A stretch of DNA of 64,000 nucleotides from Liopterus haemorrhoidalis (Eukaryota > Arthropoda > Insecta > Coleoptera > Dytiscidae): the NCBI GenBank assembly GCA_963971575.1, contig OZ020625.1, forward strand, positions 19,498,829-19,562,828, written 5' to 3'. Position numbers and translations under genes: made by a program. Positions 10,199-53,447 of this stretch are shown in pieces (position 1 is the first letter of the stretch; each line of letters opens with the position of its first letter). Below the pieces are notes generated by a model. The model was not told the DNA's origin and searched no databases. It saw only the letters and a program-made list of their open reading frames with translations.

Positions 10199-10836
10199 TT
10201 ATTCTTCGGATGTATGAAGTTTACGCCTGTGTCTGTTAAGCTGGACTGATTGCGTGAAACTCGCTTCGCAAACGGTACAGACGTAGGGTCGTTCTCCGGT
10301 ATGTGTCCTCATGTGACTCTTCAGGTGTCCGTTCCTCTTAAACCCTGCCCCGCACTCAATACATTCATGTGGTTTCTCATCGGAGTGCACTGACATATGT
10401 TCACTGAGGTGACTGCTACGTTTAAACCTTGCGCCGCAATCATCACATTGGTATTGTTTGAGGTCAGAGTGAACATGTTCATGCCTCACCAAGTCATGTT
10501 TAGTCGCGAACTTGTTACCGCACTGGCCACACGTGTACGCGTTATCACCATGTAGACGTTTATGACTCTGTAGACTATCCTTATGTCTAAAGACCCTGTC
10601 GCAATCATCACATCGGAATTGTGTGAAGCTGGAGTGAACATATTCATGCCTCGCCAATGCATGTTTACTCCCGAACTTGTTACCGCACTGGTCACAGGTG
10701 TACGCATTATCACCATGTATACGTCGATGTCTCTGTAGATTCCTCTTATGTACATAGCTTCTGTCGCATTGGTCACATTTATATTGGTTGTCAGTGACGC
10801 TCTTCTTCTCCAGGACACACTTCTTTCGTTCTTTAC
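10199..10836 (-). CDS. Prdm9: PRDM9-like exon 9 (seven-finger C2H2 array, stop)
   Basis: A single open frame from the acceptor TTTGTAG to TAA encodes seven canonical C2H2 fingers at residues 415-604 (bases 10214-10783), joined by GDNA, SSFTQ, SDLKQ, SDEKP and TGERP-type linkers. Fingers 1-2 (10619-10783) and 3-4 (10454-10618) are a tandem 165-bp repeat. Presumed DNA-contact residues differ between the copies at several positions (finger 1 versus 3: R/N/R to D/S/S at helix 2, 3, 6). The exon ends four residues after the last finger. Confidence 0.94.
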
Positions 10837-13800
10837 CTACAAATATTATATTATTAGAAAACTATCTGCTAGATGTGAGAAAGACCAGTGTTTATCAATG
10901 AGAGGATAAATGTGACGCTCGATTCACACGTACCATATACGCATGCGTCCCAGTCTACCGGGAAACGAGCATTTTAAAATAAGGTTATGTGTTTACCACT
11001 GGGTAACTAGACAATTCGGGCCGTTCACAATTGGGGCCTTTCACAACTGGCGCCATTAACAACTGCATTAGAGATGGGAATTTCGGCTCAAACTTTCGGA
11101 ACCGGATCAGTGGAGGTCGTTCAGTTTGTTGAGCCGGTTCATTGATCCGGCTCAGTGATCCGGTTAAGTAAACATGTTTCCGAGAAACAGGTCAGTCATT
11201 ATTTCGTAGGTAGAACGTCGCTTAGAGCCGGTTCTTGCAATATATGAACTGTAAACATGATCCCGAGACACAGGTCGGTCGGTCGTTCGGTCGTAGGTAG
11301 AACGTCGCTTAGAGCCGGTTCTTGCAATATATGAACTGTAAACATGATCCCGAGACACAGGTCAGTCAGTTGTCGGTCGTTCGCTCGTAGGTAGAATGTC
11401 GCTTAGCCCCGGCTCTTATCTAACATTTTTGAAATAAAATATTCACTTTATTTAGCTACTGTATTTTAAACCAAATGTGTTAAGTTTATGGCGATGTTTA
11501 TTGCCCTTATAAATCGGACATCTGGGATTTGGGCAATATTTTTAATATTTTTATATAGTATGGTTGTAAGAAAATACAGACTAAGCCTATTAGTTTCAAA
11601 TAAACTGCCCTACAAATTGATGACAAAATACACTTTATGATAATACATTACAAGCCGAGTTCTCGCGACGTTCAACATGACATCGATCCAGGATCCGGAG
11701 GATCACTCCGGTCACAGCTCACAATCGCCCGACTAATCGTATCCTTGAAACTTGAAACTATACAGTGAGCCGTAAGCCGGCTCATTTCAATTTGGTGAAC
11801 CGTGTCACTTCGGTTTTTAGGATTTCCTAGGTATAATCAAGAAACGTTTTTGTTTTGTTAATATCATGCAAATTTTAATAATTAATTCCTGCTTATATTG
11901 ATTTTTATTCGATATCAGTTTGCCAACGTTGTTGGCAACGGGGTCTGCTAGTTCTGTAATAATATTCATCCTGTTTTAAAATGTTTTGTTTTTCATTTAT
12001 TTCATATTTTTTTGTAACTTTAAATTTTGTTTTTCATTTATTGATTTTTTCTCTTTACATAATAAATTTACTATTATAAATTTTCTCACTTGTTTGACTT
12101 TAAAACTTCCATCAACAGAGACGCAGGTAAATTCAGACAAATTTATTTTCCTAGTTTTATCTAAACTAGTGGTGGCAACCTTCCCCCTTGTTTTTACAGT
12201 TTATTAAATTCATCCCCCCCCCCCCCTGTTTTTACATCTTGGTAAATTTATCTTCATCTGGTAGCAGCGGTGGGATTTTTTAATTAAGACATTCTTTAGT
12301 AACTTTTGATTGTTACATCCTGTTTATAATACGACTGCAGAACAAAGACACACAACTTCATAACATAAAACTTCACCAAGTTGAACATTCATGTTTGTAG
12401 AGGCTATGCGTAGCCAATCACAAATGGGATTTTCAGTTCTTATGTGTTATAATAGCTACATAACATAACGCATGGCATATGACATAGCATGTCTCCACAC
12501 CACAACGCACAAGCCATAACTATGGTGTTTATAACAGAACCAGTGTACCTCATTGGTACATTAATCGGTACGCGGAACTCTTCTTGATTTGTCATACAAT
12601 ATTGGATTATTTTCCATTAGTTCAACCAACCTCACTTCTTTTTCCATTTTTAATAAGTTGTAAACACAATAATAACCAGAAAATATACAAAAACTGATGA
12701 CAATTGTGAAGCACAGCGCATGCTCGCCACTCTCTTCTCTGATTGGCTACGCATAGCCTCCACAAACATGAATGTGCAACTTGGTGAATTTTTATGTTAT
12801 GGAGTTGTGTGTCTGTGTTGTGCCGTCGTATTATAAACAGGACAACGATAGTACTATGTTCCAACTTCATTAAGTTATGGAACCATACTATGCATATGCT
12901 TTGCGTTATGTTATGAGTCTATTATAAACCAGGCTTTACGGTCGACGTCTTGGCCATCCCTGCTGTAATACATCGCGTAAAACCCCGTATGCACTAGGGC
13001 AGTGTTTCTTATTCTTTACTGGCTTGGGACCCCCCCAAATTACGTATATATTATATGTGGCTCCTTATATATTTTTAAACACGCATGCCCGCGCTCTCTC
13101 ACACATACAAAAATATATATATTTTTTCCTATATCAAAATACATATGTACAAAACTGAAATTGTTCTTGAATAAAAGAGCGCATTTTGACTGACTTAGCC
13201 CCGGGCGACAATAGAGCTAGCGCCTGCTCTGTAAACGCTATTTGCATTACCCTTATGTACAAAATTTCACTAAAACCATCATTTTCATTTTCCAAGATTT
13301 TTCATGGATTCATACTTTATCCCAACACTTTTTTTATGGAACCTATGGCGTTTTATTATTGAAATGAAAAAAGGTTTTATTCTGATTTCAATGATATAAA
13401 CAGTATTTATCACTATAAATAAAATAAAATTCTGTATTATACATACCTGGATCATTTACTGGATACAGACACCTCTTCTTGCAGAATTTTTTGTGCTTTT
13501 CAAGATATTTATCAGAACTAAAGCCAAATTTGCAGTATTCACAAATGTAACAGGAACCTGTAATAGAAATAAATATATAAGTAAGCATAAGAACTAGTGA
13601 CATAGCTAAAAAAATCAGGAGCCCCGGCTCATTTTTCTATTTTAATAATAATAATAATGTTTATTGGAATTTAGCATTAGCCTTACATTCATGTCATACA
13701 AGAAAAAAATATATATCTATATATATATATATACATACATATGTATGTATATACTAAATACAGGGAATAACTGTTAAATTACAATTAGTAAATTCTTCAA

Positions 13801-16800
13801 TGGTGTATAGTGCCTTTTCTACTAAGAATGATTTCAATCTGGTTCTTAATTGATTTCTTGATAATTTTCTTAGTTGTACTGGAATTTTATTATACAGTCT
13901 ATACCCTGTATGTAGTGTAGCTGTTGTTTTCAGTCTTGTAAATGGTATCCGTATTTGCTCTCTGGTCCTGGTTCCATAGTTGTGCACCTGCGATACATTA
14001 CGAGTATCACCAAAATGTTCATGAACTTGCAGCACATGTTGTAGAATGTAGATACTGGGTAGGGTAAGAATTCTGTTTTTTATGAATAGAGGCTTGCAGT
14101 GTGTATGACTGTTAACTCCTTCTATCGCTCGTATGGCTTTTTTTTGCAATATAAATATCTTGGGTGTGTGAGCCGAATTTCCCCACGCAATCAGTGCATA
14201 TGAGATGAGTGAATGACACAGAGCAAAATAAGCTACTCTCCCAGCTTCTGCACTTACGCATTTTGATATGCGCCTAATGGCAAAGATTGCTGTTGATAGT
14301 CGCTGAGATAGCTGTTCTATATGTGGTAGCCAAGTAAGGCGCGAGTCAAGTGTAACTCCTAGGAACCGTGCTCTTTCAGATTCGGCTTCTATCCTTCTAG
14401 AAGTGAAGAAACGCAGTAGCATTGTTTTATCTTCATTTAAACATAATTCATTTGCATTGAACCACTCTTTGGATGTTGTCATAAGATCTTCGGTATCGTC
14501 TCTTGTTGCTATTGAAGTATCATCTGCGTATTGTATCACATGGCAGTTATGCAAGTTATTAGAAAAGTCATTCATGTACAATATAAAGAATAATGGTCCC
14601 AATATTGAGCCTTGTGGAATACCTCTATTTGATATCTTTATTGCACTACATTGTCCACCACATTCCACAGTTTGTTGCCTGTTCTGTAGATATGAAGTGA
14701 TCAATTGACTTGGTTGTCCTCGAAGACCATAGTGATTTAACTTCTCTAAAAGTAAGGCGTGTGACATACAGTCGAATGCTTTACTCAAATCGCATAATAA
14801 TAAACTACAGTCTCCATGATTTTCAAATGCGCTTGATATATATTGTACTAAGTTGAATATTGCATCCTTCGTACCTTTGTTTTTACGGAATCCATATTGA
14901 TGTTCGTAGAAAATGTCTTTTTTCTCAATATAGAATATGTAACTGTCTGCAATTATAGATTCAATAACCTTTGAAAAGACAGGAAGTAGCGTTATTGGCC
15001 TGTAATTCGTTGGATTTTTAGAGTCTCCTTTTTTATTTATTGGAACTATTTTTCCTGCTTTCAATTTTTCTGGAAAGACTCCCATCTCAATACATGAGTT
15101 TATTATATCTGTAAGGGGCAAAGCTATAATATCTGCTACCAATTTAATTGTGATGGTACTGAGACCGTAGATGTATGTTGTTTTTTTGCTTTTTAATCGA
15201 TTGATGTGCAGAATTAAAACATGGATGTAAACTCAGTATTGATCTCCATATTTTCCATAGGCTCAGTATTAGTAGCAGGTATATTTGCCAGTAGCTGTTC
15301 AATTATTCAATTATGTTTTGAGTGAGAATTGTTCAATTATGTTTTGAGTCACCTAAATTATTATTTAATTTTTTTTAATTTGCCAAATATTCAGGAAAAA
15401 TAAAGTTCTTAAGGAATTTATTAATATGTTATCAACATGTAAACAGTTGAAGTGATTTTGTTATTAATAATGTTATTGGCAGCTTCTCCAGTCCGAAATC
15501 AATATGTCTTCACAGGAAAAGGTAGCTATTTCTGCAACTTATGTAGTGATTGTTTAGCGCAGGGGTCGGCAACACGGCGCCCTCTGTGTGATTTTTAGGC
15601 GCCCTCGAGGACCTTTTTTGTTTTGCTCGTCACGTTTTATGCGCCCTCAATAATATTTGAATTTATATTGCGCCCTTATTGACAAAAAGGTTGCCGACCC
15701 CTGGTTTAAGAATATTTTTTCTATAACATCAATATCAACAGTTTTTTGATAATCGTTTTGGTTAGGCATATGTTCTGTATGTTTACACATGTATAGTTGC
15801 ATAATAAATATTATTTCTCAAAGGACTCCACACCTAAGTACAAGATCCACCGCACATCATTGCTCATGAAAAAGGAAGTTAAAAAAACTACACAAACTTG
15901 CACGTTACAATACATTACCTGAAGCTGGCTTTTTGGATTTGTGTTTTAAGACAAGTTCTTTTCTTTCCTTCATAATGCAGTTAACAATATGCTGGTCAAG
16001 GTAGATTGGACTAGCGAAGTTATTATGGCAATCTGGACATTGAAATACGTTCTCTGTAAAACAAATATAACAGTGTTAAATTTCTGCAATCCTATTATTC
16101 GCAAACTTATACACATTACGGTAGGCATATGCAATTACGTCTTCACAGGTAAACCTGACGGTCATATTGTCACAAAGACCTAGGATTAGCCTAGGTCAGG
16201 ATTGCGACATCTAGACATTGTGACGTTCAGCTGTCTGATTGAAAAACTATTTGTCAGCGTCTGACGTATGTTGCCTGATTACGAAATGCATATGCCGCAT
16301 TTTCGTAATGAGGAAATATTTGTCATGACGAATGAATATTGGAACTGGGTCAACCATCAGTACAAATACTTGGACGTCGTACAGTAGCGAGGCAGAGGAA
16401 CCTAGCCAAGTCCTCTACAGATACTAGTCCACACGGTGACGACCAAGACATCGACGCCAGATATTCGTACCGCCGGTGAGCCAAGCAAGCAGTCACCATG
16501 TGAGTGGGAGAAGACTTCTCCAGGCTCCTCGACTACCTGATGGGCAGTCCCCGCCTCGGAGATAGGTCCAAGCCGATCCTGGCCAACACGGGGAGAACCG
16601 AACACTTCCCCAACTCCATGGGCAAATTCATACCATTACATTGTAAATTGGATATATAATTTATAAATTTATATTGTTAAAACCAGGAATTGTCTTTCAA
16701 TCAAACCACCCACGTGACAATATAAGCTCCGTACAACTCTATTAAACTGGAAAATCACCGTTTATTATCACTTGATAAAATGGAAAAAAAACGTAGTGTT

Positions 16801-19800
16801 TAAACAGGCCATTACACATCAATATGAATGAGACTCAGTAAATGCTCATGCATGTTACATCTGCGGATAAAATAACGTATAGAAATGTCTAGGGTTTCGT
16901 AGGCATAAACAAGAATTTCTAGACACTCCTATATCCTATGATCGATATGAAAAATATTTTGCAGATTTCTTTCCTAAGAATCTGCGGGAAAAAAGACGTA
17001 CAGAAATGTCTAGAATTTCGTAGGCATAAACAAGAAACTCGATACACTCCTATATCCTATGATCGATATGAAAAATATTTTGCAGATTTATTCTCTAAGA
17101 AACTGCGGATAAAACTGCATATATAAATGTTTAGGATTTCGTAGGCATAAAATAGAAACTTTAGACACTCTTGTATCCTTTGACCGATATGAACAATATT
17201 TTGCAGATTTATTCTCTAAGAATCTGCGAATATAATTATATATAGAAATATCTAGGATTTCGTAGGCATAAAAAAGAAACTTTAGACACTCTTATATCCT
17301 TTGACCGATATGAACAATATTTTGCAGATTTATTCTCTAAGAAACTGCGGATAAAATTGCATATAGAAATGTTTAGGGCTTCGTAGGCATAAAAGAGACA
17401 CTCTAGACACGCCTATATCCTTTGACCGATATGAAAAATATTTTGCAGATTTATTCTCTAAGAATCTACGAGTATAATTATATATAGAAATATCTAGGAT
17501 TTCGTAGGCATAAAAAATAAACTTTAGACATTCTTATATCCTTTGACCGATATGAACAATATTTTGGAGATTTATTCTCGAAGAATCTGCGAATATAATT
17601 ACATACATAAATGTCTAGGGTTTCGTAAGCATAAATTAACGTCTCAAATTAATTTTAGTTTTAACAATATAAATGTAATGTACTGAGTAAAAATGAATCG
17701 TTTTCCCATCTTGAATAAATAATCTAACTATATAATTAACAAGTGTATGTATGTAGTGTCGGTAACATTAATGACATGACGCCGATTTTTCTTAAGGTTC
17801 TCATGATTGGCTAACTGGGGACACCCTGTTTTTTGATTGGCTGACAGGTGACACCCTCTATCATGATTGGCTAACGGGTGATATCCTATCCCGTGATCCG
17901 CTGACCGGCAATGAAATTAAGATACGTTAAAAAATAAAACCAAATACAAATACAAACAATTGAAATTTTTATGTTATAAATTCGTCATTGTTGACGGGTA
18001 GTAACCTAGAATTATTAATATTATTAATCCCAATGTTCATAGACAGAAAAATTACGCAGTTATGGAATCTACATATTCCATTTTACCTGCGACGTTATCC
18101 GTAAGCATACCGTAATATGTGTAGCAGGAATAACTCGGATACTAGAGACTGTTACTAAAACTTACCTGGGAACGGTTTCTCCAAAGGAGCATTATACATC
18201 TTGCAGTCAATGCCTAACTGTTTGGCAAACTTAGTCCCATACCACACTAATAGCTCGGTGTGAGGCTTGATCTCATACAATGTCCGGTAATATATTACGC
18301 CACAATACTGATAGGCCATCAAGTTCTGTTCAGCCTTATTTCTGGCGCAGTTCACGTACCTCATCCAGTTAGACAGTCCGGGATTGTAAGCATCGATACA
18401 TTTCTTCACTTTACCACGCAACTGAATGCAAAAGAAATACGAATTTATTATAAAATGGTTTACTTTTTCTTGTCCGAAAATATGATATACATTTGCAATT
18501 TTAATTAATTAGAATGATTTTATTTATGAAATAGTTACAAATATCTAGAAAAACAAAGAATAATACAAAAAGTTTAAATTTAACAAGGACGTGTCTGTCT
18601 CCACAGCTTGTATGCAACATGATAACGTTGTTTGTAATCGTCCCTTACGATGAAGTTTTGCCTTATTAATGAGCGGAATCTTATAGGAAATCCCCCCTTT
18701 TGCTAACATGGTTGCTTCTAGACAAGTTTGCAATGTTAGAAAAACATTATCATTGGTTTTTATGTTTATTGCATTAAATGCGTTTTGAACGTATTTAATC
18801 AATTCGGCGATTCTATTCGGTGAAGCTGTATGTTGTAAGGATTGTATAGAAGTGAAGAAGCCAAGATCCAATACATTAAAATCTGGACCGGCCGGCGTGA
18901 ACTTGACCAAACGACATAACAAATATAACATTGATAAGTCCAAAAATTAAAAAAGTTATAGTTATTTAAATAGGGATCTCAGTACCTATGTCCTAGTATC
19001 AAAAAAATAAAACAATTATAAAATATTAACGTTCCCAAAGATATGATAATTTGAAACTGGTCAAGTTCACCCTGTTTTACAGTACTTTTAAAATTAAAGT
19101 AATTGTATTTGTACTTAATTACATTTTTTAGAAAAGTAAAATACTTATACTTAAGTACACTTTTTTGTACTTGTGTGCAGTTCTGTGTAGAAAGAATCTA
19201 TCTGTAATAATATTATTAAGTAATGTTATCAAGTTCCTTACCTCCCAGCAATATCCCTCGTCATTGCCCTCAGTTTGAATCTCACCCTCATAAGGCCCAA
19301 AACGGATTCCTTCAGGAATGTATTCCAGAGACCAGACTCCTTCTCCATTGATGCGGCTCTGTTTCACTGTCATCCAACCTTTGGGGATGGTCTTCTTGGC
19401 CCTCTCGGGGTCATCAGGGTCTTTGGGGACTGGGAAATCCCTTATTATGATGAGGTCACCGTGGACCTTACAGTAATCCTCCCATTCGAACATACAGTCG
19501 TCACAATCTGCACAACATAATAATATTAAGCAACTAAATAAGACGAAGGAATTTTCCTGGGTCCCCAAATAAGGATATAAAAGACTAGAATTAACAAGAG
19601 AAGATCTGGAAAGAGCCAAATTGTCTCATTTTCTAGAAATACAAATAAGTTTATATTTGATTATAAATTAAATGGCAATTTATTAAATAGGATGGAAATT
19701 GTGAAGGATCTTGGGGTGTATATTGACACAAAATTATCATCTGAAGCTCATATATCAATATAGTTTCTAAAGCCTGGAGAATGCTGGGTTTTATTATTCG

Positions 19801-22800
19801 TAGCACAAAAAAATTGAAATCGTTCATTCCTATTAAAAATCTTTATTTTGCCTATGTTTATAGTCTACTAAATTTTGCATCCGTTATTTGGAACCCCCAG
19901 TATGATAAGTACCGTATTTCTCGGACCACAATGCGCACCAGACAATAAGACGAACCCCAAATTTATGAGACAATTTTTAGAAAAGTATTATTACGATAAC
20001 TTGCAACATTCTGTTCTTCACTTTCTATACTATATCTCGTATCGTTAATGTCACTGTTCGTATTATTTTTGTCTGAACTATTGTTGTCAATCTCTTCAAA
20101 AACCAAGTCATCTTCCATCTTCGATACTATCAAATGCGTTGCTTATACCGCATTGCTTTAAAAACTTTATAATCGTCTTTTCTTTTACAGCTAACTATGA
20201 ATTTTTTACCCAGGTACATACTTCTGAAATTATCGGGCATTTCATATGTCCTGTTGCTGTATCATCGTGATTTGGCTTTATCATTCATTTGTTCCACTCT
20301 TCCCGCATAAAATTATTAAAAGATTTATTAATCGACACATACAAGGGTTGTCGTTGACTTTTAAGACCTCCAGAAATGACAGATAATTCTGTATTCATTT
20401 CTATAATATTTTCTTGGTTGATTCTGTTTAATGCGCTCTGAATTGATTCCACACTAACATCGCACACTTTTTAAACAACGCACCTATAGCGTCGGACCAT
20501 AAGACGCACGCCAATTTAAACCGATTTTTCTGCGTAAAAAGTGCGTCTTATGGTCCGAAAAATACGGTATGTAAATAAAATTGAAAGAACTCAGATTAAA
20601 GCTTTAAAATACCTTTGCTATAAAACAGACACCCTTTATGAAAATTATGAATCTGCCAGTGCTACTTTTAATATTAAAAAATCGTCGTGTGCTAGCGGAC
20701 ATGCTCTTTCTTTATAAGATTGTTAATAGCATCACTGAAAGCAGTGACCTGCTACAACTTTTTGATCTTCATGTTCCCTCATATCAGACCCGCAACCAAA
20801 CGTTATTTCACTTAACAAATTTTAATACTAATTCCTTCTGTAGTTCACCCCCATCAGATTGGTATCTACTTATAATATGAACTTTGGGACCATTGATATT
20901 TTCAATTCTGCCAAACTTCTGTTCCGCCGAATGTGCATTGAAATTCTAAGATAAACCTTACGTCGTGCAATAAATTGCATATTTCATTACTTTTATCTAT
21001 AACATTCTGTATTTGTTTACTCTCTGATTATGTACTTTAATTACTAATGGTTTAAACATATACCGTGTATTTAACAGAGAACACTTTACTGGGCTTGTCC
21101 TGTGTGTGTTCCAGTCCAATAAATAAAAAATAATAAAAAAAAGAGAAGCTTGCATAGGGTAATATGTTATCAACAAGTTTTTATCATATTGCAAATATCC
21201 ACATTATCGTTAAACCCCCTTACACTATGAGGCATGCATCGATTCCGAGTCATCATGAAACAGGCATCACTGGCCGTTGGACACACACTACTGACGCATG
21301 CCTCGATGCAAAACATTGAGTCGACGGTTGTACACAGATTTTTTTAGTATACAACTCGACGTTTATTTCATTGTCACCAGTTTTGAATAAAATATAGAAA
21401 AAAATAGTGATTTACCATTCGCGCATAGCATTCGCTGCAGTCGTTTTTCCGACTAATGCCTTTTCTGATCATTTATCAACGTTGTCAGTCAGTCTGAAGT
21501 TTGCAACTTCAGTTTTAGCTTTAGTTTAATTCACTGTATTGATATCTGACCGAAAACAACTGATGACTGGGTAGATAGAACAACACCACAGTATATTGTA
21601 AGAGAGGAACTGAAAAGGGATAAGATGAAAGTGGATATAGGAAGGCGGTTAAGCACAAGGAGAAAGTTAGAAGAGAAACAGACAAAAGAATAGTGAGGGA
21701 ATGCTGGGAGCAAAGAGCCAGAGAGGAACAGAAAGGAAGACGGTACGCATGGGAAAAGATGAGAAAGGAGTATTACTGGTGATGCGGAGTGGATGCGACA
21801 GAGGTGGAAAGGAGAAGAAATGAAGGAATAAGAGTGATTGAGGAGGTGTGGAGGAAGGATAAGGAAGTGGGGGAACAAGAAAGGATAGTCAGAGTAGACA
21901 AATCAAGGAGCGCAGGGAGATATAAGGAAGTTAGAACTATAGGGGTACCAAGCTACTTGAAGAGAGAAAGAGGAAGGCCAGGAGGGAAAGTTAGGAGGAT
22001 TGCGAGGCTAAGGTGCGGGAACGAAGAGAGAGGAAATAGATTATTAGAGGAAATCAGCATTACAACATGCTAGAAATGTAATGCGTTCTTTGCTTATTTT
22101 TCGACTTGGTGCGGTCTTTTCCTGAGAACGAACCAGCGTTTATTCAGGCATAATTTTCCAATATAGGGTAGATTCATCTGCATTGTATATATAATTATGA
22201 CGGAATCGACGTCGCTTTGATCGTTGGATAGTTTTTAGCCACACACTTTCAAAGAACGCAGACTATGCATTTTTCTGAAATTACAAATCTAGCCCCTGCT
22301 AGCTTGAAAGTTATCATTTCCATAGATTTTTAGTATAAAACTGTTTTGCTTTGGCAGATAAAATTTCATAGGAAATCAGGACGTGCCTTGATCGTTGTGT
22401 ACTAAACCATGCATACAAACGTGTTTCTATTACTGGATATTTGTCCTTTCTCAACGTTTTTCTGGAGCCGGGACCGGACATCTGATCCGATCGAATTTCG
22501 TATATTAGGAAATTAGGGGAACCCTACACAGTCGATTTCAGTTTCCTTCATTCATTTGTACGAAGTAGACGTCTGGAATTACCAGGTCTACAAGTATGAA
22601 ATGCGGATTTTTTTAAAAAAATTAAACACATTAAACTCAAAAGAACAGTAAAAGTTTATTTATTCAAAGTATTCTCCATTAGAAGTTATACATTTTTCCC
22701 ATCTTTCAGGCAATTTGTGAATACCTCGCCAGTAGAACTCTTCCCCTTGCCCCGCAAACCATTCATCTAGCCATTCTTTCACATTTTCATAAGAACAAAA

Positions 22801-25800
22801 GTGCTGCTCGGCAAGTGCGTGACCCATCGATGCGAACAAGTGGTAATCTGAAGGGGCCAAGTCTAGTGAGTAAGCGGCATGGGGTAGCACTTCCCACTTG
22901 AGTGCCTCCAATGTGTTGCAAACTGCTTTTGCCTTATGTGAAAGAGCATTATTGTGAAGAAAGATTACCTTGTAGTGTCTTCTTTCGTATTCTGGTCGTT
23001 TTATGAGCAGCGAATGGTTCAATTCGATCAGTTGTTGTTGGTAGCGTTGGGTATTAACTGTTTCACCAGGTTTTAACAATTCATAATAGACCACACCCTT
23101 TTGGTCCATCCAAGTACAGAGCATTGTCTTTTTGCCAAAGCGATGCGGTCTTGCAGTTGATGTGGATGGTGAGCCTGGGTTCACCCATGATTTTTTGCGT
23201 TTGGGATTTTCAAAATAAATCCATATTTCATCGCCAGTAATGATACGATGCAAAAAAGACTTTCTTTTGTATCGTGCATTTCACAAGTGTTTTTGCGTTT
23301 TTCCATCTGCCTCTTATTCAATGCATGTAGAACCCATCTGCCGACTTTCTGGAGCTTACCCATCTCTCGTATGCGATTGGAAACAGCTTGTTGACTAACG
23401 CCTAACTGCTCTGCTAGTTGTTTTTGTGATTGACTATCGTCTTTCTGTAGCAATGTTTCCAATTTTGTATCTTCATATTTTTTAGGAAGTTTTCCATGTT
23501 CTTTGTCTGTAAGATCAAAGTCACCACTTTTGAAACGCCGAAACCATCGTTCACACGTATCTTGCGATGGAGCATATTCACCATAAGCTTTTCGAAGCAG
23601 TCGGTAGGATTCAGCAGCAGTTTTTTTCTAATGAAAACAAAACAGTAGTACTGTCCGCGAATGCTCTTTATTTGGCACAAAATTTGACATTTTTAACACA
23701 GTAAAACAAAACTATATGATCACTTTTCAAATTATAACCTATACGCATTTGACACTTAATGATAACTTAACAAAACGCCACATGTGTTGAAACTTTGAAC
23801 TATATACTCTGTTTGCGCGGCAAGCTTGAAAAAAATCCGCATTTCATACTTGTAGACCTGGTAAAAACGCAGGTCCGGATTAACGATTACTATCAAATCC
23901 AGATTATAAACTATACAATGCAATTGAAATGCTTGGCCGGATTACCGAAAAATCCGATCTTCTGAGGCTCCGGATTATTGAGGTTGCACTGTAACAATGT
24001 TTATAAGTCGGGGCCCTACTCTTGATTTAACTACACACTTTGTTTATGTATTTAACTGTCATCAGATATCAGTATTTTGGGCCCCTTTGTGGCGTTTTGA
24101 TCGGTAGCTTGCTCATGGACAATAGGCACGTCACGTTAACATATTTCATATATTATATTTCAGAAAAAAAAAAGAAAAGTTTATATCAACGTGAAATGTT
24201 TATCTGTTATCCTTTCATTAACGTCTCCCGAGGGTACGGGTTCGCTTTCAGCGCCCCTGAGAATATTTATCAACCTGCTCGAAATATTTTGAACACACCA
24301 CTGTAATAGAGCTTCAATAGGCTATCTACTCAATTAATGAGTAAGAACAAAATATACTTACATATGTAACGATCGTCCGGTAGTATTTCTTCTTCGTAGT
24401 AATTTTTCTTTGCTACGTTTCTTTTAGGGTAGCGTCTGACACAGGCTTAAAAAAAATTAAAAAATCAGTTTATCCTATAAATCATTAGATGCGATATGCA
24501 CTTACTTTTTGATGTGCTAGGCGTATCTTTGGTATTCACTCTGTGAATAAATAATACAAAAATATAGCATAAATAATTTAAAAATATAAATTTTCGTTCC
24601 AATAATAAAATCATAAGTTCCAAAAGAAAATTTTAAAATAATACTATTAAATGAAAAATGATTTTTTTTTTACCTCACCACTTGAAAGTAATCAAAAAGT
24701 TGCCTAAAGAAAGTTCAGTTTAAAATATTTTGATTTTTAATAAAAAAGTTATAAGGGAAAATTAAATTTGGCGAATTTTAATATTTTACTTATATATAGC
24801 GTGCATTTTATCTAGAACTGGCAAGTAAAACCAGTTTTTTGGGTACACAGTTCCGGCCAGTGTTGAATCCAAGGGGGTCACCCCCCGGGTGACAAAAATA
24901 CCCCCCCGGAGAAAATTTTCAGTTATAGTTACAGTTCTGTAGTGAAATATTACCTACTACAAAAATATCGAAATCAATAAAATATCGATAAAAAAAATAT
25001 CGAATACTAAAATATTCGTATCAAAAGAAGCTTTAGTAAGCTTTTGATTGCGTATGTCCCACTATATTACTAGAGAAACTTTCGTTGTATGGTTTCACAC
25101 TTGAGAGTTGCTCCCTTTTAAAATCATATCTTTTAAATAGAATTCAATATGTTAAATTTAATAATAAATTATCTGGAATTTAGTCTCTTTTGTATGGAGT
25201 TCCACAGGGATCAATTCTAGGACCTCTCTTGTTTATTATATACATTAATGACCTACCTTCATCAATTTCCACAAATTCCAAATCTATTTTATATGCAGAT
25301 GACTCTAATTTTGTTTTGAGATCATCAGACTATGATCAGCTATGAAATGATACCGATCACTGTTTCAAGGAAGCTAAGCTCTGTTTTATATCTAATAAAC
25401 TCTCTATGAACGATGACAAACATTTATGTAGTACTTTGGGTAAATCAATTTACTTGCTAAGGCAACTGGCTAATTCGGTTTCCAAGCCCATTCTCCTGAT
25501 GGCATATTTTGGGTTGTTTCAGCCACACATGTCTTATGGCATATTAGCCTGGGGACATGCATCATTGTCATATAGTTTTTAGGCTACAGCGCCGGGCTTT
25601 GAGAATAATTGCACGCATTTCCTATAGCGCTGATTGCCGTTTAGTGTCGTAGCTAGCATGGGTGACACCCGGGGCGGATATCGATGGTGTCACCCCTCAA
25701 AAACGGTTAAAATCAACATTATGTAACAGAAAAAAATCAGGTAAGCGTGAAGTATAATTTTAACAATTTAAATACACATTTAAAAAATTATAAGTCATTG

Positions 25801-28800
25801 ATCATCAAATTGCAAAATTATCAATCAAGTATCATAAACATATATAGAAGAAACTTGCAAACACTTTTAATTTAAAAATATTTTAAATATTATAATCTCT
25901 TCTTTCTAACTTTGACAGCTGCAAACACGGAAATCACATCTTCAAAATTAATAGTTTGTGTTGCCGCGTGTTCGATCGCTAACATTGCAAGATTGTTAAG
26001 TCTCGTGTTGCTCATTGTTGACCCTAAGTAGTTTTTGACTAATTTTAATTTACTAAAGCTCCTCTCGCACGAAACTACTGATACGCAAATTGTCATAAAT
26101 AACTGTAGTGCGACCATAAGATTTGGAAGGGATTCTGTAAAATCCCATTTCACGATTTTCAAGAGGTCTACGGATACTCAATCAGACACTATAACATTGG
26201 CTGCTTTTAAATGTCTTCTCAACCTTGATATCTCTAGGAGGAGTTCTGCTTCAGACACCTCATCATAAAAACCAGTAAATTTTGATACAGCTAATTTCAA
26301 TTTCTCGATGTTCGCCGAAAGCAAAGTATTTGTCTGGACTTTGATCTAGTTCGAAGGTCCCTAACCGGTCGAGACATTCCAACATATCCTTTCGATTTTC
26401 AGCTGTCAGTGTGAGTTCTGCATCGGTAACAATCTCCCTGGCCATTCTTTTTTTACGATGAATTCGCTTTTCTATTGGAATGTCGTAGTCGTCCGATTTT
26501 TTCGCAGCAAGTCCTATTGCCTCTTCTACAATATGATCCCTTTTTTCTGGAAATAAAGACGAAGTGCCTCTATTTTTATAGCTAATTGATCAAGACTCAA
26601 ACCTTTACTTTGCAATAAAATCTAAGCGCAATTTATTTTCTTTAGTACGTCATTGCAAAAGAAAAGATATCAAAGAAAAGTGAAATTACATACAGCAGGT
26701 ATAAGGTTCTGGGCAGCACCTCTGGTGTCTATATTTTCCTGTCGATCACATAATTCCCAAATTGCAGCCACAATTTCATCAAAAATTTCTGCTAGTATTT
26801 TTACTGCAGCATACTGAGCACTCCAAAGCGTTGTTGAAAGTCTTTTAACAGATGCTTTACTGTGTTTGATAAGCACTTCCCAGCGGCTAGTGGAAGCAGA
26901 GAAAAATGTGCGTCTGTATACTGGGATACACTATGTGACCTCCAGTACTAAAAATTTCTATGGTAACGCTACGCATAGTATATTGAAAACCAGTGTTTTA
27001 ATGTATCTAGGTATTTGTATCTAACCAATCAGCGACCAGTAAACTCTTTCTTACTTGGTGGGAGTAAAAACATGATTCACTCTGAATCTAAACATGAGTG
27101 TGATATGGTATAGTTTTGCAATCTATATATATAAAATCGTAACTAAGCTACCTACTCATAATGAACGCCCAGCCCAAACCACTGAACCTACAATCATGAA
27201 ATTCGGCGAGTATATTCCCTCCATGACGTAAGCACCCACTAAGAACGGATTTTTCGAAACTCATCCTCTAAGTGGGTGAAAAGAGGGTTAAAAGGGGTAA
27301 AATATGGTTTTCACGGTTTTCTTAATATCTCTTAGGTCCAATAAAATATCGACTTGGTTTTTGCTCACAATGATTACTCATATAAATATTAAAAAACTTA
27401 TTTCAGGATTTTATTCTAATCGACCCCTAAAGGGGTGAATCTACAATCAGGGTGAATTATAGAACCCTTCGCATCTTCTGTGATTATTGTGTTATAAAAT
27501 TCCTTTTTGGCATATAGGTGCCTTTTTAAAATATTTAGAAAGTGTTTTGACCGTTTTTTTAATTTTCACCCCTAAAGGGGTAAATTGGTATTTTTAATTC
27601 GATGGAATTTCGTCTAGACAAAGAAACATAAAATTCGGGGATTATATCCCTTTTATGACTTAAGAACCCCCTAAGAAATGATTTTTCGAAATTGGACCTC
27701 TCAGGGGTGACAAGGGGTGAAATGTGTTTACACGGATTCCTCAATTTCTTTTAGGTCGATAATATATCGCCTTGGTTTTTGCTTATAAAGATTATCCTTA
27801 TAAATGTTAAAAAACTTATTTCAGGATTTTATTCTAATCGACCCCTAAAGGGGTGAATCTACAATCAGGGTGAATTATAGAACCCTTCGCATCTTCTGTG
27901 ATTATTGTGTTATAAAATTCCTTTTTGGCATATAGGTGCCTTTTTAAAATATTTAGAAAGTGTTTTGACCGTTTTTTTAATTTTCACCCCTAAAGGGGTA
28001 AATTGGTATTTTTTATTCGATGGAATTTCGTCTAGACAAAGAAACATAAAATTCGGGGATTATATCCCTTTTATGACTTAAGAACCCCCTAAGAAATGAT
28101 TTTTCGAAATTCGACCTCTCAGGGGTGACAAGGGGTGAAATGTATTTACACGGATTCCTCAATTTCTTTTAGGTCAATAATATATCGCCTTGGTTTTTGC
28201 TTATAAAGATTATCCTTATAAATGTTAAAAAACTTATTTCAAGATTTTGTCCTAATCATCCCCTAAAAGGGTGAATCTACAATCAGAAACAATAATAGAA
28301 ACCACCGTATTTTCTGTGTTGGTTGAGTTATAAAATTCCTATTTGGAATATAGATGTCTTTTTAAAATATCTCCAAATGGTTTTGACAGTTTTTCAAAAT
28401 TTCACCCCTAAAGGGGTAAAAAGTTATTTTTTATTTGATAGAACATCCCTTGGACATAGATACATGATATTCGCAAAGTATATTCCCTTCATGAGGTAAG
28501 CATACACTAAGACGGAATTTTTCGAAATTCAACCCCTAAGGGGTGAAATATAATTTCAAGGATTCCTAAATATCTCTACGGACCAATAAGATATCGTCTT
28601 GGTTTTTACTTACAAAGATTACCCATATAACTGTGAAATTACCCCTAAAGTGGTGAATTTCCGAACAGAGTTAATTATACAACCCACCATATTCCCTGTG
28701 TTTGTTGAGTTATAAAATTCTTTTTGGCGTATAGGTGTCTTCAAAATATCTCGAAATGGTATTGACAGTTTTAAAAATTTCACCCTAAGGGGTAAATGGG

Positions 28801-31800
28801 AATTTTGTATTCGATTGAACATCCCTTCATGACGTAAGCACCCACTAAGACGGGATTTTTCGAAATTCCACCCCTAAGAAGTGAAATATGATTTCAAGGA
28901 TTCCTCAATACCTCTTAGGACCAATAAGATATCGGCTTGGATTTTGCTTACAAAGATTACACATACAAATGCCGAAAAACTTATTTCAGGATGTTGTCCG
29001 AATCAACCCCTATAAGGGTCTACAATCGGAGTGAATTATACAACCCTTCGTATTTCCCGTGTTTATTGAGTTATAATATTCCTTTTTGGCATATCGGTGT
29101 CTTTTTAAAATATCTCGAAATTGTTTTGACAGTTTTTAAAAATTTCACCCGTAAAGGGGGTAATGGGTATTTTTTACTCGATAGAACGTCCTCTGGACAA
29201 GATACATGATATTCGTAAAGTATATTCCCTGTATGACGTAACTACCCACTTAGACGGAATTTTTCGAAATTCAATCCCTAAGGGCTGAAATGTGATACCA
29301 AGGATTCCTTAATATCTTTTAGTACCAATAAGATATCGACTTGGCTTTTGTTTATAAAGATTAACCATACAAATGCCGAAAATTTTATTTCTGGATTCTT
29401 TCTTAATCAACCCCTAAAGGGGTAAATCTATAATCGGGGTGAATTATACAACCCGTCGTATTTCCTGTGTTTATTAAGTTATAACATTCATTTTTGGCAC
29501 ACCGGTGTCTTTTTCAAATATCTCGAGATAGTTTTGACAGTCTTTTAAAATTTCATCTCTAAATGTAAATGGGGGGGGGGGGGTATAAATGGGTATTTTT
29601 ATTCGATAGAACTTCCCTTGGATATAGAGACATGAAATTCGGTATATTCCTTCCGTGATGTAAGCACCCACTAAGAAGAGATTTTTCTAAATTCGAGCCC
29701 TAAGGGGTGAAATGTGATTTGAAGGATTCCTCAATATACCTTAGGACCAATGAGATATTGACTTGGTTTTTGATTATAAAGGTTACCCATACAAATTTTT
29801 GAAACAGTAATTAAGGATTTTGCCCTAATCAACCCCTAAAGTGGTAAATCTACATTTGGGGTAAATTATAGAAACCTTTGTAATTCCTGAGTTATAACAT
29901 TCCATTTTGGTACATTATTTTCTATTTAAAATATTTAGAAAGCGTTTTGAAAGTTTTTTAAATTTCATCCGTAAAGGGGTAAATTCAATAGTAAATTAAT
30001 AATTGCCGATGATGGCAAACCGTCAATAAACCGTAGCGAAGCACGGGTACTCAGCTAGTACCTATATAAAATTTTAAATATTTTATGGTTTAGTTATCAA
30101 AATTATAGTGTAAAATAAAATATTGGGTATTAATATTTATAATAATAAGTTTAAGAGATGTCAACTTTACAAAATTAACTCATATCGCAATTGTGTTAGG
30201 TTCAGAGTCACTACAAGGTTAACGGTTAAAATTAAAACGTACAATGTAAATTACACTGTAATTTTATTAATAACGGTTAAGTAAAACAACCATTAAGTAA
30301 TTATCTAATCTAAGAATAAGAATTAATTTTATAAATGTGAATTAAATAAAGAAAAATATAATAAATAAAATTGTTGTTTTATTTTTGTCATCCTAAATAC
30401 TCATTTAATAATCAGTAATTTATTAGCGAGCAAAAAATGTTCGAGATATCCGCTGAAATTGGAATAAAAAAGTGTTTTTTTTAAAGATTACATAGGTATA
30501 TAGTTAGTTAATATTTCTGACACACAGCTTCAAAGGCTATTTGTGTTTATTTTAAGAGTAATAATAGTGCATAACTTATTTTTTATTGTGAACAAATATA
30601 TTCCTTGCTCTAGTTATTTCTTTTTTTTTTTGTGGTGTTTTCATTTTTCCGAAAGTATCTTAAAAGTATCTTGAAGTATCTAGATACATTGTAAAAAAAA
30701 TGTATCTGTATCTAGATACTTTTTAAATTTTGTATCTGTATCTGCATCTAGATACATTTTTCCTCAAGTATCTGTATCTATATATATTTTCAAATGTATC
30801 TATTACAACACTGTTGAAAACACAAAAAGCCCTAGAGATTGACATAATTTAATTAAAGATAAAAAATATATATATAGTTTCTTTTTTAGATTTTAGTTAT
30901 TTCATTTCACGGAGTTTTTGTAGGATATATATTTTTTTTCAATCGCGGCCGGATGTCACCCCCAAACGGGTGACACCCGGTGCGGCCCGCCCCCGCCGCC
31001 CCCTTCGTTGATCTTAATATTATGATCCTGCCTTCTATGTACATTTTTCAGTCTACTGTATGTACACAAAAAAAATTCAGATCTATCTACATATGAAGAA
31101 AATCATAGTTACAACACAAGGAGTAAAGGTAACATCTACCCAACATTTTTACGTCTTGATTGATAAAAAAATAGTGAAAATTATTATGGCATTAAATTTT
31201 ATAATTCATTACCCAGCATGTTCAAAACTCTAAATTTTACAAACTTTAAAAAAGTAATAAATGATATTTTGACAAAAAACTCGATGTATTCGATAAGGGA
31301 GTTCCTAGAATATTTTAAACAACAGTGATATTTTATCCAATTGACTATTTTCTTATACCTCTGCATATTTGATGTTATTATATTTTATATTTATATTTAT
31401 ATCTATGTCCTCCATTCTGTGTAAACTTTATATATTTGTAATTTTGACTGACTAAAAACAGTCTTTGTAATTGTAATTTAGTCCATAAATATATTATTAT
31501 TATTGTATCTACAATTACCTGTTTCTTATACGTAAACTTTTTTTAAACTTCTTAGTTGGTATTTGTTCCTCATCGCTCGTATCTTCACTTTCATCTGATT
31601 TCTCCTCATTAGAATCATTTGCTTTATTTCCCATCATTCGAAGCATGAAATTTGGTGGCGGTGTATCAAATCCTGTTCGAAAAACATTATTAATGCAATT
31701 CACATATATGTACATTATCAAAAAAATTAACAAAATACCTTCTTTGATCATTTCCGAGTGATTTTTATACATTTGTAGGTACTTTTGTTTCTCATATAAG

Positions 31801-31886
31801 GGCATTTTACTCCAGCGATCAGCATCAAAATACTTCATGATATCGGAGATATCATACTTTGCAGAAGAATTACCTTCGTTATCCAT
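10199..31886 (-). CDS. Prdm9: PRDM9-like histone methyltransferase with zinc-finger array (complete, nine exons)
   Basis: Spliced gene; exons in coding order: 31886-31739, 31672-31519, 24540-24506, 24445-24362, 19507-19242, 18421-18166, 16053-15919, 13557-13447, 10836-10199. Every junction is GT-AG, phases agree, and the total of 1827 bp gives 608 aa with no internal stop. Domains: KRAB-like about 12-60, acidic linker with EDTSDEE near 80, SSXRD-like about 113-135, zinc site C142/C145/C153/H156 with the spacing seen in PRDM9, PR/SET about 182-300 ([22 protein letters not shown]), two C2HC single fingers (about 319-341 and 362-384), and seven C2H2 fingers at 415-604. In vertebrates PRDM9 trimethylates H3K4/K36 and places meiotic recombination breaks at sites bound by its fingers. 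The tyrosine of LLVWYG (about 290) matches the PRDM9 catalytic tyrosine. Inferred: an active nuclear methyltransferase; a meiotic role is not shown. Most introns are large and full of transposons. Confidence 0.93.
11160..11410. repeat. Tandem repeat of about 115 bp (intron 8)
   Basis: Two to three units each contain TAGGTAGAACGTCGCTTAGA, GCCGGTTCTTGCAATATATG and AACATGATCCCGAGACACAG. GGTCAGTCAGT-type microrepeats lie between units. Flanking CCGGCTC/GAGCCGG motifs suggest it sits in a MITE that ends near 11810. Confidence 0.75.
11811..11951 (+). mobile_element. Helitron 3' end
   Basis: It ends with a strong hairpin (TTGCCAAC-GTT-GTTGGCAA, 11920-11938), then CGGGGTCTG and CTAG (11948-11951) followed by T, the classic Helitron terminus. 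The sequence from 11811 matches the Helitron at 57757-58267. The 5' end was not found here. Confidence 0.75.
12319..12841. mobile_element. Foldback element with about 102-bp inverted arms
   Basis: The left arm 12319-12420 (CCTGTTTATAATACGAC...GCGTAGCCAATCA) and right arm 12740-12841 are inverted and nearly identical. The spacer is about 320 bp without coding potential. In intron 8 of the PRDM9-like gene. Confidence 0.8.
13447..13557 (-). CDS. Prdm9: PRDM9-like exon 8 (second single zinc finger)
   Basis: It encodes GSCYICEYC then [17 protein letters not shown] and [12 protein letters not shown]. It is another CCHC finger in a 111-bp phase 1 to phase 1 exon, so exons 7 and 8 may be duplicates. 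Acceptor TTATTACAG, donor GTATGT. Confidence 0.84.
13640..15240 (-). pseudogene. 5'-truncated LINE: reverse transcriptase (CR1/Jockey type)
   Basis: The open frame from 15142 to 13754 (462 codons, extending in frame to about 15235) covers most RT blocks: [53 protein letters not shown], and the thumb region. The catalytic YADD is intact, but endonuclease and ORF1 are missing. The 3' end carries AATAAACATTATTATTATTA, a short-repeat LINE tail. It lies in intron 7 in the same orientation as the gene. Confidence 0.9.
15560..15703. mobile_element. 144-bp hAT MITE (CAGGGGTCGGCAAC ends)
   Basis: Terminal CAGGGGTCGGCAAC repeats are inverted; flanks GTTTAGCG / GTTTAAGA are partly matching. Same end sequence as the Charlie-like element at 6302-7360, so likely mobilised by that family. 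Confidence 0.8.
15919..16053 (-). CDS. Prdm9: PRDM9-like exon 7 (single post-SET zinc finger)
   Basis: It encodes ENVFQCPDC then [16 protein letters not shown] and a basic tail ending KSKKPAS. The finger is CCHC rather than CCHH and sits where PRDM9 has its isolated finger between SET and the array. The 135 bp keep phase 1 to phase 1. Acceptor TTTTACAG, donor GTAATG. Confidence 0.86.
16168..16719. mobile_element. Solo LTR (552 bp)
   Basis: It starts TGTCACAAAGACC and ends CCACGTGACA (TG...CA with TGTCAC/GTGACA inverted), flanked by a 4-bp ATAT duplication (16164-16167, 16720-16723). This is the footprint of a Gypsy-type element removed by LTR recombination. In intron 6. Confidence 0.7.
16850..17640 (+). 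repeat. 121-bp satellite array, about 6.5 units
   Basis: The motif TTTCGTAGGCATAA recurs about every 121 bases (near 16897, 17018, 17139, 17260, 17381, 17502, 17623). Units 3 and 5 share CTGCGGATAAAA-CTGCATAT. Units 4 and 6 share GCGA-TATAATTATATATAGAAA. This indicates a 242-bp dimeric higher-order period. A related fragment lies at 46740-46790. In intron 6. Confidence 0.9.
17797..17925 (+). repeat. Short tandem repeat around TGATTGGCTAAC
   Basis: Four degenerate units of roughly 35 bases with TGATTGGCTAAC/TGACAGGTGACACCC. No coding sequence; intron 6. Confidence 0.65.
18166..18421 (-). CDS. Prdm9: PRDM9-like exon 6 (second half of PR/SET)
   Basis: It encodes the SET core with [30 protein letters not shown] and ELLVWYG. 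NWMRYVN and EQNL are near identical to PRDM9. The tyrosine of VWYG is retained, so the methyltransferase site looks intact. The exon starts at 18421 after TGCATTCAG in phase 0 and ends in phase 1 at CAG|GTAAG. Confidence 0.94.
18545..18960 (-). pseudogene. Plant-type mariner transposase C-terminus (DD39D-like)
   Basis: The minus-strand ORF contains [31 protein letters not shown], and [12 protein letters not shown]. This is the signature C-terminal region of the plant/oomycete-like mariner branch ([10 protein letters not shown]...NNVFLTLQ...NYKIPH). The third catalytic Asp (PDF) is kept, but the rest of the enzyme is missing. Lies in intron 5. Confidence 0.75.
19242..19507 (-). CDS. Prdm9: PRDM9-like exon 5 (pre-SET zinc site and first half of PR/SET)
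   Basis: It encodes [16 protein letters not shown] (zinc ligands C, C, C, H with PRDM9 spacing 3-8-3), a charged linker, then PKGWMTV...[19 protein letters not shown] and EGYCWE. These are diagnostic of the PR/SET fold and closest to the PRDM7/9 branch. Phase 1 in, phase 0 out at a GTAAGG donor. Confidence 0.93.
19640..21140 (+). pseudogene. Jockey-like LINE 3' fragment, split by a pogo element
   Basis: Translations resembling the RT C-terminal region ([15 protein letters not shown], then after the insert [33 protein letters not shown]) occur with several stops and frameshifts. It ends at AATAAATAAAAAATAATAAA near 21140. Intron 4, opposite strand to the gene (19640 to 19911 and 20568 to 21140). 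Confidence 0.75.
19912..20567 (-). mobile_element. pogo-type element remnant
   Basis: Ends CCGTATTT-TCGGACCA inverted, flanked by TA on both sides (19910-19911, 20568-20569). A minus-strand ORF (20467-20285) encodes [20 protein letters not shown], which matches the DDE_1 block of pogo/Tigger transposases (GGLTS-x-LQPLDVSINK). Most of the transposase is deleted. Confidence 0.85.
21541..22045 (+). pseudogene. Fragment of the same LINE family as 62.6-64.0 kb
   Basis: It encodes pieces such as [34 protein letters not shown] and [19 protein letters not shown] that match the minus-strand LINE at the right edge, with frameshifts. Truncated at both ends; intron 4. A mariner-end scrap (21415-21500) lies just upstream. 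Confidence 0.8.
22582..23861 (-). mobile_element. Full-length mariner, 1280 bp
   Basis: Perfect inverted repeats start CCAGGTCTACAAGTATGAAA, with TA duplications outside (22580-22581, 23862-23863). Inserted in the Tigger element. The length is standard for mariner and the transposase gene is almost whole (22660-23690). Confidence 0.93.
22660..23690 (-). pseudogene. Mariner DD34D transposase, nearly intact but dead
   Basis: Start codon at 23690, stop at 22660, about 343 residues. HTH region: [20 protein letters not shown] and [16 protein letters not shown]. Catalytic region: IITGDEIW (D1), LHNNALSH (D2 position), LAPSDYHLF (D3), with exactly 34 residues between the last two. Lesions: an amber stop about 20 codons in (TAG after FCFH), one missing base near 23264 that shifts the frame before D1, and Asp to Asn at the second catalytic position. 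Confidence 0.9.
24362..24445 (-). CDS. Prdm9: PRDM9-like exon 4 (SSXRD-like segment)
   Basis: It encodes [19 protein letters not shown] then ILPDDRYIY, entered from a poly-pyrimidine AAG acceptor and leaving at a perfect GTAAGT donor. PRDM9 has YSLRERK...YKEVSEP...DDDYLYC in the same place, the SSX repression domain region running into the first zinc ligand. The 84-bp length keeps phase 1 to phase 1. Confidence 0.86.
24506..24540 (-). CDS. Prdm9: PRDM9-like exon 3 (35-bp micro-exon)
   Basis: This micro-exon has a TTCACAG acceptor and a GTAAGT donor. It encodes [11 protein letters not shown] between exons 2 and 4 and is needed to carry phase 2 to phase 1. It was identified by phase and splice consensus rather than by similarity, so it is slightly less certain than its neighbours. 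The next intron is 60 bp. Confidence 0.78.
26991..30813. mobile_element. hAT-type repeat (CAGTGTTTTAATG ends) enclosing a Helitron
   Basis: Inverted ends CAGTGTTTTAATGTATCTAG / CAGTGTTGTAATAGATACAT, with the exact 8-bp duplication TTGAAAAC (26983-26990, 30814-30821). The interior has GTATCTAGATAC-type motifs like 5285-7991. Confidence 0.85.
27122..30058 (+). mobile_element. Helitron-like element built of about 415-bp tandem units
   Basis: Starts TCTATATATATAAAA after an A and ends CGAAGCACGGGTACTCAGCTAG before a T, the insertion pattern of Helitrons. A small hairpin (TTGCC-GATGAT-GGCAA) is at 30003-30018. Inside, about seven tandem units recur (landmark ATTTT-TCCTAATC-ACCCCTAAAGGGG near 27408, 27829, 28240, 28615, 28987, 29391, 29815). 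The first two are almost identical. No rep/helicase coding: non-autonomous. Confidence 0.8.
31519..31672 (-). CDS. Prdm9: PRDM9-like exon 2 (end of KRAB-like region, acidic linker)
   Basis: It starts after a CGAACAG acceptor and encodes [10 protein letters not shown], then a serine/aspartate/glutamate-rich stretch ([11 protein letters not shown]) and a basic patch ([12 protein letters not shown]). An acidic DSDEE motif lies at the same place after the KRAB domain in vertebrate PRDM9. Phase 1 in, phase 2 out. The following intron (24541-31518, about 7 kb) is a stack of nested transposons. Confidence 0.88.
31739..31886 (-). CDS. Prdm9: PRDM9-like exon 1 (start, KRAB-like domain)
   Basis: It encodes residues 1-49, beginning MDNEGNSS. 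The ATG at 31886-31884 sits in an AAAATGG context. The segment [14 protein letters not shown] followed by a YEKQKYL helix matches the KRAB A-box style of PRDM9 (PRDM9 has an EEW-x-x-M core at this place). The exon ends in phase 1 at a GTATTT donor, and the next intron is only 66 bp. Confidence 0.88.
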
Positions 31887-51915: not shown

Positions 51916-52038
51916 TGTGGTGGACCGATATTAATAATGCACAAATACCCAGAATATATATTTATTTATTAAACTACTTTTTATTATATTTGACAAGTAA
52001 CAACACAGTTGTTACTATGACATTTTAAATATATCACA
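51916..52038 (-). repeat. 5' LTR of the Gypsy element
   Basis: 123 bp. Presumed promoter for gag-pol. Its outer edge is only six bases from the start codon of the LINE ORF1 (one base beyond the CTCAA duplication). Confidence 0.95.
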
Positions 52039-52044
52039 CTCAAA

Positions 52045-53445: not shown

Positions 53446-53447
53446 AA

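Follow-up and report, generated by a model that had tools for sequence, protein, structure and literature searches.

Full-length homologs of PRDM9 have been reported from cnidarians and sponges (PMC13186367) and from many metazoans (PMC11703093), and the evolution of the Prdm9 fingers was analysed in a sea anemone, a snail and a polychaete by Oliver et al. 2009 (PMC2779102). Ancestral KRAB sequences are likewise described from insects and mussels (PMC8835667), and Drosophila melanogaster appears to lack PRDM9 (PMC2779102). Here we describe a PRDM9-type gene in a stretch of 64,000 nucleotides from the dytiscid diving beetle Liopterus haemorrhoidalis (contig C14, positions 19498829-19562828; hereafter the window), together with its relatives in the whole genome, which was searched over 1.02 Gb and 91 contigs. 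The mitochondrial ND2 on contig C91 shares 99% identity over 96% with that of Liopterus haemorrhoidalis. The earlier note on this stretch had proposed a complete PRDM9-architecture gene in an arthropod; this was borne out, and the SET domain clusters with those of PRDM9-like proteins. It had also presented a full copy outside vertebrates as a surprise, pointing to Drosophila and C. elegans as animals that lack PRDM9. This ground fails because PRDM9 outside vertebrates is established: a protein database search with the window protein returned 677 matches at E <= 0.001, and among the 120 matches listed at least 41 are from arthropods and at least eight from beetles, many of them already labelled PRDM9-like. 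As to C. elegans, Oliver et al. 2009 (PMC2779102) mention a fingerless ortholog. What is new here is a family of five copies with finger exons that diverge at their contact residues, neither of which is visible in the window alone. Searches of the open-licence PMC literature, whose reach excluded most subscription papers and all bioRxiv preprints, listed no paper recognised as treating a PRDM9 family of beetles.

The window gene (copy D of the family) spans 31886..10199 on the minus strand, which corrects the earlier note. Its exons were located by anchors and then joined, giving the following model.

31739..31886, minus strand: exon 1, start codon and first part of the KRAB-like region (amino acids 1-50), present in all five genomic copies including that of the window
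31519..31672, minus strand: exon 2, end of the KRAB-like region (to amino acid 59) and an acidic linker
24506..24540, minus strand: exon 3, a 12-residue linker without homology support outside this genome
24362..24445, minus strand: exon 4, SSXRD-like segment
19242..19507, minus strand: exon 5, C-C-C-H zinc site and first half of PR/SET (Y213 in GPYEG)
18166..18421, minus strand: exon 6, second half of PR/SET (Y274; Y290 in VWYG)
15919..16053, minus strand: exon 7, SET-proximal C2HC finger
13447..13557, minus strand: exon 8, second C2HC finger
10199..10836, minus strand: exon 9, seven C2H2 fingers (two two-finger, alpha-beta units and three terminal fingers), then the stop

All introns are GT-AG with consistent phases, and the spliced frame (148+154+35+84+266+256+135+111+638 = 1827 bp) encodes 608 codons plus stop; the coordinates and the length given in the earlier note are exact. 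Introns 1-8 measure 66, 6978, 60, 4854, 820, 2112, 2361 and 2610 bp. At the base composition of the window, the chance of this frame staying open is p ~2e-21. Exons 1, 2 (first part), 4, 5, 6 and 7 are backed by alignment to other PRDM9-like proteins, and beetle proteins with a C2HC finger in the equivalent place support exon 8. Another donor within exon 2 allows an in-frame eight-exon model that skips exon 3; against that model, exon 3 and its splice sites recur in all five gene copies, the window's included.

Pfam-A matched the SET/PR domain and the C2H2 fingers of the window protein. A KRAB profile built from 21 vertebrate PRDM9 sequences scored 32.0 bits against residues 15-59, compared with 11.3 for the best of 5000 shuffles. 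The SSXRD profile, built from 20 sequences, scored 14.5 bits, and since the best of 5000 shuffles reached an equal score, the SSXRD-like domain rests on position and alignment. Both segments sit at the expected places when the window protein is aligned with 24 further PRDM9-like proteins, some of them (several) annotated without the N-terminal part. Directly before the SET domain, the C-C-C-H zinc site could be aligned residue by residue to human and mouse PRDM9, with the human spacing as previously claimed. Residues Y213, Y274 and Y290 align to Y276, Y341 and Y357, the catalytic tyrosines of human PRDM9 (PMC5519329); all three are kept, and Y290 is the VWYG tyrosine already pointed out in the earlier note. 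The finger encoded by exon 7 is separate from the array, whose seven fingers lie in one terminal exon, and its counterpart in the alignment is the proximal finger of human PRDM9. A second C2HC finger after SET was observed in five of seven polyphagan beetle proteins and in none of the ten other arthropod proteins examined, and the Carabus protein shows only the first such finger and ends soon after.

Taken together, score, tree and architecture identify the window gene almost certainly as a PRDM9 ortholog. When sequences of the PDB, which already contains solved PRDM9 SET structures, were ranked for the window protein, PRDM9 came first (132.8 bits), followed by PRDM11 (102.7) and PRDM1 (77). 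The best of the database matches listed was a Carabus protein named Blimp-1 (47% over 83%), and a search from that protein gave 73 matches, adding Lepidoptera and a second Carabus piece. A first SET tree comprised 55 rows after P0074, whose SET match was too short, had been left out. In this tree, the window protein joined both Carabus rows (96/93), and all three fell inside a group (82/89) of PRDM9-like rows from insects and crustaceans. The PRDM9-like set as a whole was not one clade, because PRDM11 was nested in vertebrate PRDM9 and the long-branched PRDM4 was unresolved. A second tree without six rows (PRDM4, PRDM11, P0026, P0027, P0049 and P0124) split the PRDM9-like set from PRDM1/12/14 at 92/93. 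Thus the phylogeny against other PRDMs proposed in the earlier note places the window gene with PRDM9-like proteins, but yields no single clade when all 55 rows are kept. Both the Blimp-1 name of the closest annotated homolog among the matches listed and the position of PRDM11 in the first tree would suit another PRDM family member that resembles PRDM9, e.g., PRDM11 or Blimp-1 itself. This is nevertheless extremely unlikely, as the PDB scores put PRDM9 first, PRDM11 is described as having no detectable fingers (PMC2082429) while the window gene has seven C2H2 fingers, and the genome holds a separate Blimp-1-like exon, distinct from the PRDM9-like copies, on contig C1 (L038). The Carabus blaptoides fortunei protein itself (P0001) is a PRDM9 ortholog deposited as Blimp-1.

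The N-terminal 345 residues of the window protein matched five exon sets, all of them on contig C14, and five copies each of exon 7 and exon 8 agree with this count. Copies A, B, C and E correspond to loci L039-L051 and L053-L059.

C14, ~16.20-16.24 Mb: copy A, PRDM9-like, with a 32-bp deletion in exon 5
C14, ~16.90-16.93 Mb: copy B, PRDM9-like, exons 1-8 open
C14, ~17.17-17.19 Mb: copy C, PRDM9-like, exons 1-8 open
C14, within 19498829-19562828: copy D, the window gene
C14, ~23.46-23.48 Mb: copy E, PRDM9-like, exons 1-8 open

Exons 1-8 align throughout copies A-E with conserved splice sites and are 96.1-98.7% identical between copies, with a ratio of nonsynonymous to synonymous differences per site (pN/pS) of 0.22 pooled over 10 pairs. 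The deletion in copy A shifts the frame within the SET domain, whereas B, C, D and E are open. Over the six pairs formed by these four copies, the SET exons differ by 39 synonymous versus 3 nonsynonymous changes, a ratio of 0.018; judged from these substitutions, the SET domain is frozen under strong purifying selection. Among copies A-D, pS in exons 1-8 is 0.018-0.042 and intron 5 is 98.3-99.0% identical (i.e., it differs by 1.0-1.7%), while intron 5 identity with copy E is 92.2-92.5%. The family has recently expanded, and it consists of four copies with open SET exons, a broken one, and an orphan finger exon on a single contig. The orphan, designated F (L056, C14:19696234-19699656, at 19.70 Mb), is open and encodes five fingers; it was considered as a sixth gene copy and rejected, as nothing near it matched exons 1-8. 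Beyond the stop of the copy E finger exon (L059) lies another, partial finger cassette, an open frame of 98 codons.

The genome search with the window array scored 150 of 5444 first-look candidates. C2H2 fingers are abundant in this genome (at least 192 matches to the window array at E <= 1e-10, on contigs C3, C12, C14 and C15), and the matches scored included six finger exons of the family, namely those of copies A-E and F, all open and sharing the same acceptor. Their finger counts are 7, 5, 5, 7, 11 and 5 for A, B, C, D, E and F. In each finger exon, three terminal fingers come after one, two or four two-finger (alpha-beta) units; the terminal fingers are 77-91% identical over the 15 pairs of A-F. 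Units a2-b2 and a4-b4 of copy E are 94-96% identical, reflecting a recent internal duplication.

When the 40 fingers are sorted into five classes and the zinc ligands are set aside, 19 columns remain, and the four with the highest summed diversity are precisely the contact columns -1, 2, 3 and 6, the top-ranking quartet of 3876 possible ones. For finger a1 and the three terminal fingers, 16 of 16 contact columns vary as compared with 22 of 60 others (Fisher 2e-6), and 14 of 16 still vary when F is left out (p 3e-4). In the terminal fingers, pN/pS is 2.12 (A-D), 1.54 (A-E) and 1.68 (A-F) at contacts versus 0.70, 0.60 and 0.61 at non-contact codons. Between the copies, therefore, contacts are by these counts turning over far faster than their surroundings; selection above neutral at the contacts is suggested, not proven. 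The two-finger duplication within the window array can be compared in the same way: fingers 1-2 and 3-4 are identical at 130 of 165 nucleotides (pN 0.204, pS 0.249), and 5 of 8 contacts differ versus 15 of 47 other codons, which is not significant alone (Fisher p 0.10). An apparent synonymous divergence of the fingers ten times that of the introns was dropped after the comparison had been restricted to the three terminal fingers, where copies A-D differ synonymously in 0-4 and nonsynonymously in 10-14 of 69 codons (Nei-Gojobori pS 0.09).

The explanation that we favour, by a small amount, is that of a PRDM9 ortholog in a recently expanded family whose intact copies would steer recombination through their own motifs; a recombination role of at least one copy is, in our judgement, about as probable. 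Following the mammalian model, each intact copy would bind its own DNA motif through its finger array in the germ line, and the SET domain would methylate H3K4 and H3K36 on nearby nucleosomes, with the KRAB/SSXRD-like N-terminus making partner contacts. The histone marks would then attract the meiotic break machinery, and as used motifs get lost, new fingers would be favoured, as in mammals. With several copies, several motif sets would be available to a single genome at the same time. That recombination is indeed directed by several specificities at the same time, through several active PRDM9 genes with a shared frozen methyltransferase and different motifs, is possible but somewhat doubtful. 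If true, the Red Queen of PRDM9 would run in an insect via gene duplication and turnover of two-finger units. The pattern observed between copies resembles that of mammalian PRDM9, and it fits the steering of recombination without proving it. In any case, a beetle genome with several full-architecture copies provides a definite species, with coordinates and contact residues, in which PRDM9 recombination steering in insects can be tested.

A number of results weigh against recombination steering. The full PRDM9 domain order claimed in the earlier note stands for SET/PR, the fingers and, by profile, the KRAB-like region, but the Pfam-A search of the window protein matched neither KRAB nor SSXRD. 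At the contacts, the nonsynonymous excess over neutrality is not significant (minimal-change test, binomial p 0.26-0.36), nor is the nonsynonymous share of contacts versus other codons (Fisher p 0.07-0.28). Ordinary C2H2 families, too, are known to diverge around the contacts once duplicated. The whole-array diversity statistic of the window gene is 0.187; every vertebrate gene of full architecture for which Table 1 of PMC5519329 gives a value lies above this, the range being 0.331 to 1.000. On 23 columns, the six finger exons of the family score 0.240-0.260 (window 0.242), and five of five other C2H2 arrays taken from the genome 0.284-0.406, these five being the top matches to the window array rather than a random sample. 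Since pooling mixes five finger classes, the whole-array statistic hides the change at contacts; a slowly evolving array, as first read from the value of 0.187 alone, was replaced by the class-by-class comparison of paralogs. Finally, no ZCWPW1-like exon was found in the genome, in a search that could miss an intron-split domain. The sole zf-CW exon detected (L064, C14:4618578-4618688) is nearest in the PDB to MORC3 and less like ZCWPW1/2, so that the reader which vertebrates use for the marks was not recovered.

Both the low whole-array statistic and the lack of a ZCWPW1-like match among zf-CW exons would be expected if the gene, although a PRDM9 ortholog, did not steer recombination and acted as a histone methyltransferase and transcription factor in another role, its copies being gene-dosage duplicates. 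A non-steering role has been suggested for the truncated fish PRDM9-beta. Two polyphagan beetles with divergent, non-repetitive arrays point the same way, Leptinotarsa scoring 0.26 and Diabrotica 0.276 over 20 columns against 0.275 for the window; when the fingers of both were matched one by one with the seven of the window array, clear orthologs did not emerge (best identities 0.50 and 0.55). Still, the window gene, unlike PRDM9-beta (PMC5519329), keeps the KRAB-like and SSXRD-like parts and the catalytic tyrosines, and between copies the change falls far more on the contacts than on the remaining positions, with SET frozen; we rate such a role as rather unlikely. Decay of duplicates around one active locus, with finger differences reflecting relaxed constraint and exchange between arrays, would account for the frameshifting deletion of copy A, the finger exon F without exons 1-8 nearby, the second cassette beyond the stop of copy E and the non-significant nonsynonymous excess at contacts. 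We regard it as improbable, given that in copies B, C, D and E exons 1-8 and the finger exons are open and all splice sites are kept, that the SET ratio is 0.018 and that the non-contact finger codons are constrained (0.60-0.70).

Alternatively, each copy might target transposable elements, as KRAB zinc-finger repressors do, and use its SET domain to mark repeat chromatin. C2H2 genes in many copies and with diversified contacts are typical of families that silence repeats, this genome is rich in C2H2 fingers, and the surroundings of the window gene are rich in repeats. However, the identity of the SET domain, its catalytic tyrosines and the very strong purifying selection upon it would point to active methylation, and we consider repression of repeats quite improbable.

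The repeat-rich surroundings include mobile-element coding remnants in introns 2, 4 and 7 of the window gene, further elements beyond it, and one conserved neighbour.

13754-15232, minus strand: reverse transcriptase open reading frame of 492 codons in intron 7 (Pfam RVT_1; by eye of the type without long terminal repeats, non-LTR)
22660-23627, minus strand: Mariner-type transposase remnant in intron 4, in two frames (Pfam Transposase_1 in 22660-23280, the rest by eye)
25890-26177, minus strand: hAT fragment in intron 2
37446-39149, plus strand: hAT-type transposase open reading frame of 567 codons
46412-46696, plus strand: CDC27/APC3-like conserved exon (Pfam ANAPC3), neighbour of the PRDM9 gene
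47790-51470, minus strand: Gypsy-like pol open reading frame of 1226 codons, adjoining the non-LTR-like element
52021-57124, plus strand: non-LTR-like element with zinc-knuckle and endonuclease/reverse transcriptase open reading frames

By eye, diverged direct repeats were also seen at window positions 27150-30000 and 16860-17640 (units with 'cccctaaaggggtgaa', units with 'gcagatttattctctaagaa'). Elsewhere in the assembly, COX1 matched not only contig C91 but also, many times, contigs C27 and C49, in several cases with frame stops; these additional matches are perhaps nuclear or assembly copies of mitochondrial DNA.

Among arthropods, the PRDM9-like family of the window is shared with Carabus (P0001, P0124) and with polyphagan beetles (P0011, P0015, P0030, P0034, P0036, P0088 and P0107). 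The Carabus proteins differ in that P0001 stops short of a finger array and P0124 is a piece of 200 residues, whereas in all seven polyphagan proteins C-C-C-C replaces the C-C-C-H site and the finger arrays also differ from that of the window. A cockroach (P0007) and a termite (P0012) likewise combine a PRDM9-like SET with a finger array. The whole-array statistic was run on those 49 homologs, among the 120 matches listed, that have at least four strict fingers, and other insects do score high, because P0007 (0.667) and P0012 (0.65) show the classical repeat signature, unlike the window array; as annotated, P0007 lacks a KRAB-like part (0.5 bits). In spiders and a tick (P0072, P0097, P0125 and P0065), the arrays have seven fingers with nearly identical finger spacing, and the finger-by-finger similarity between Argiope and Araneus looks like a conserved order of the PRDM9 array.

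The window gene resembles mammalian PRDM9 (Meisetz) in its domain order, the spacing of the zinc site, the three catalytic tyrosines and a divergence concentrated at the contacts, and in both the finger array is encoded by the last exon. It is unlike mammalian PRDM9 in that its KRAB and SSXRD are weak enough to escape Pfam and its whole-array statistic is low. Also, instead of the near-identical minisatellite of mammals, the beetle has fingers that fall into five classes, repeat in units of two and are mostly joined by non-canonical linkers. Several copies are a trait shared with the multi-copy PRDM9 of ruminants, for which variable finger arrays, contacts under selection and one lineage without fingers have been reported (PMC5351255), and with the PRDM9 paralogs of salmonids (PMC11703093). 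Unlike both, the beetle has all five copies, and an orphan exon besides, on one contig.

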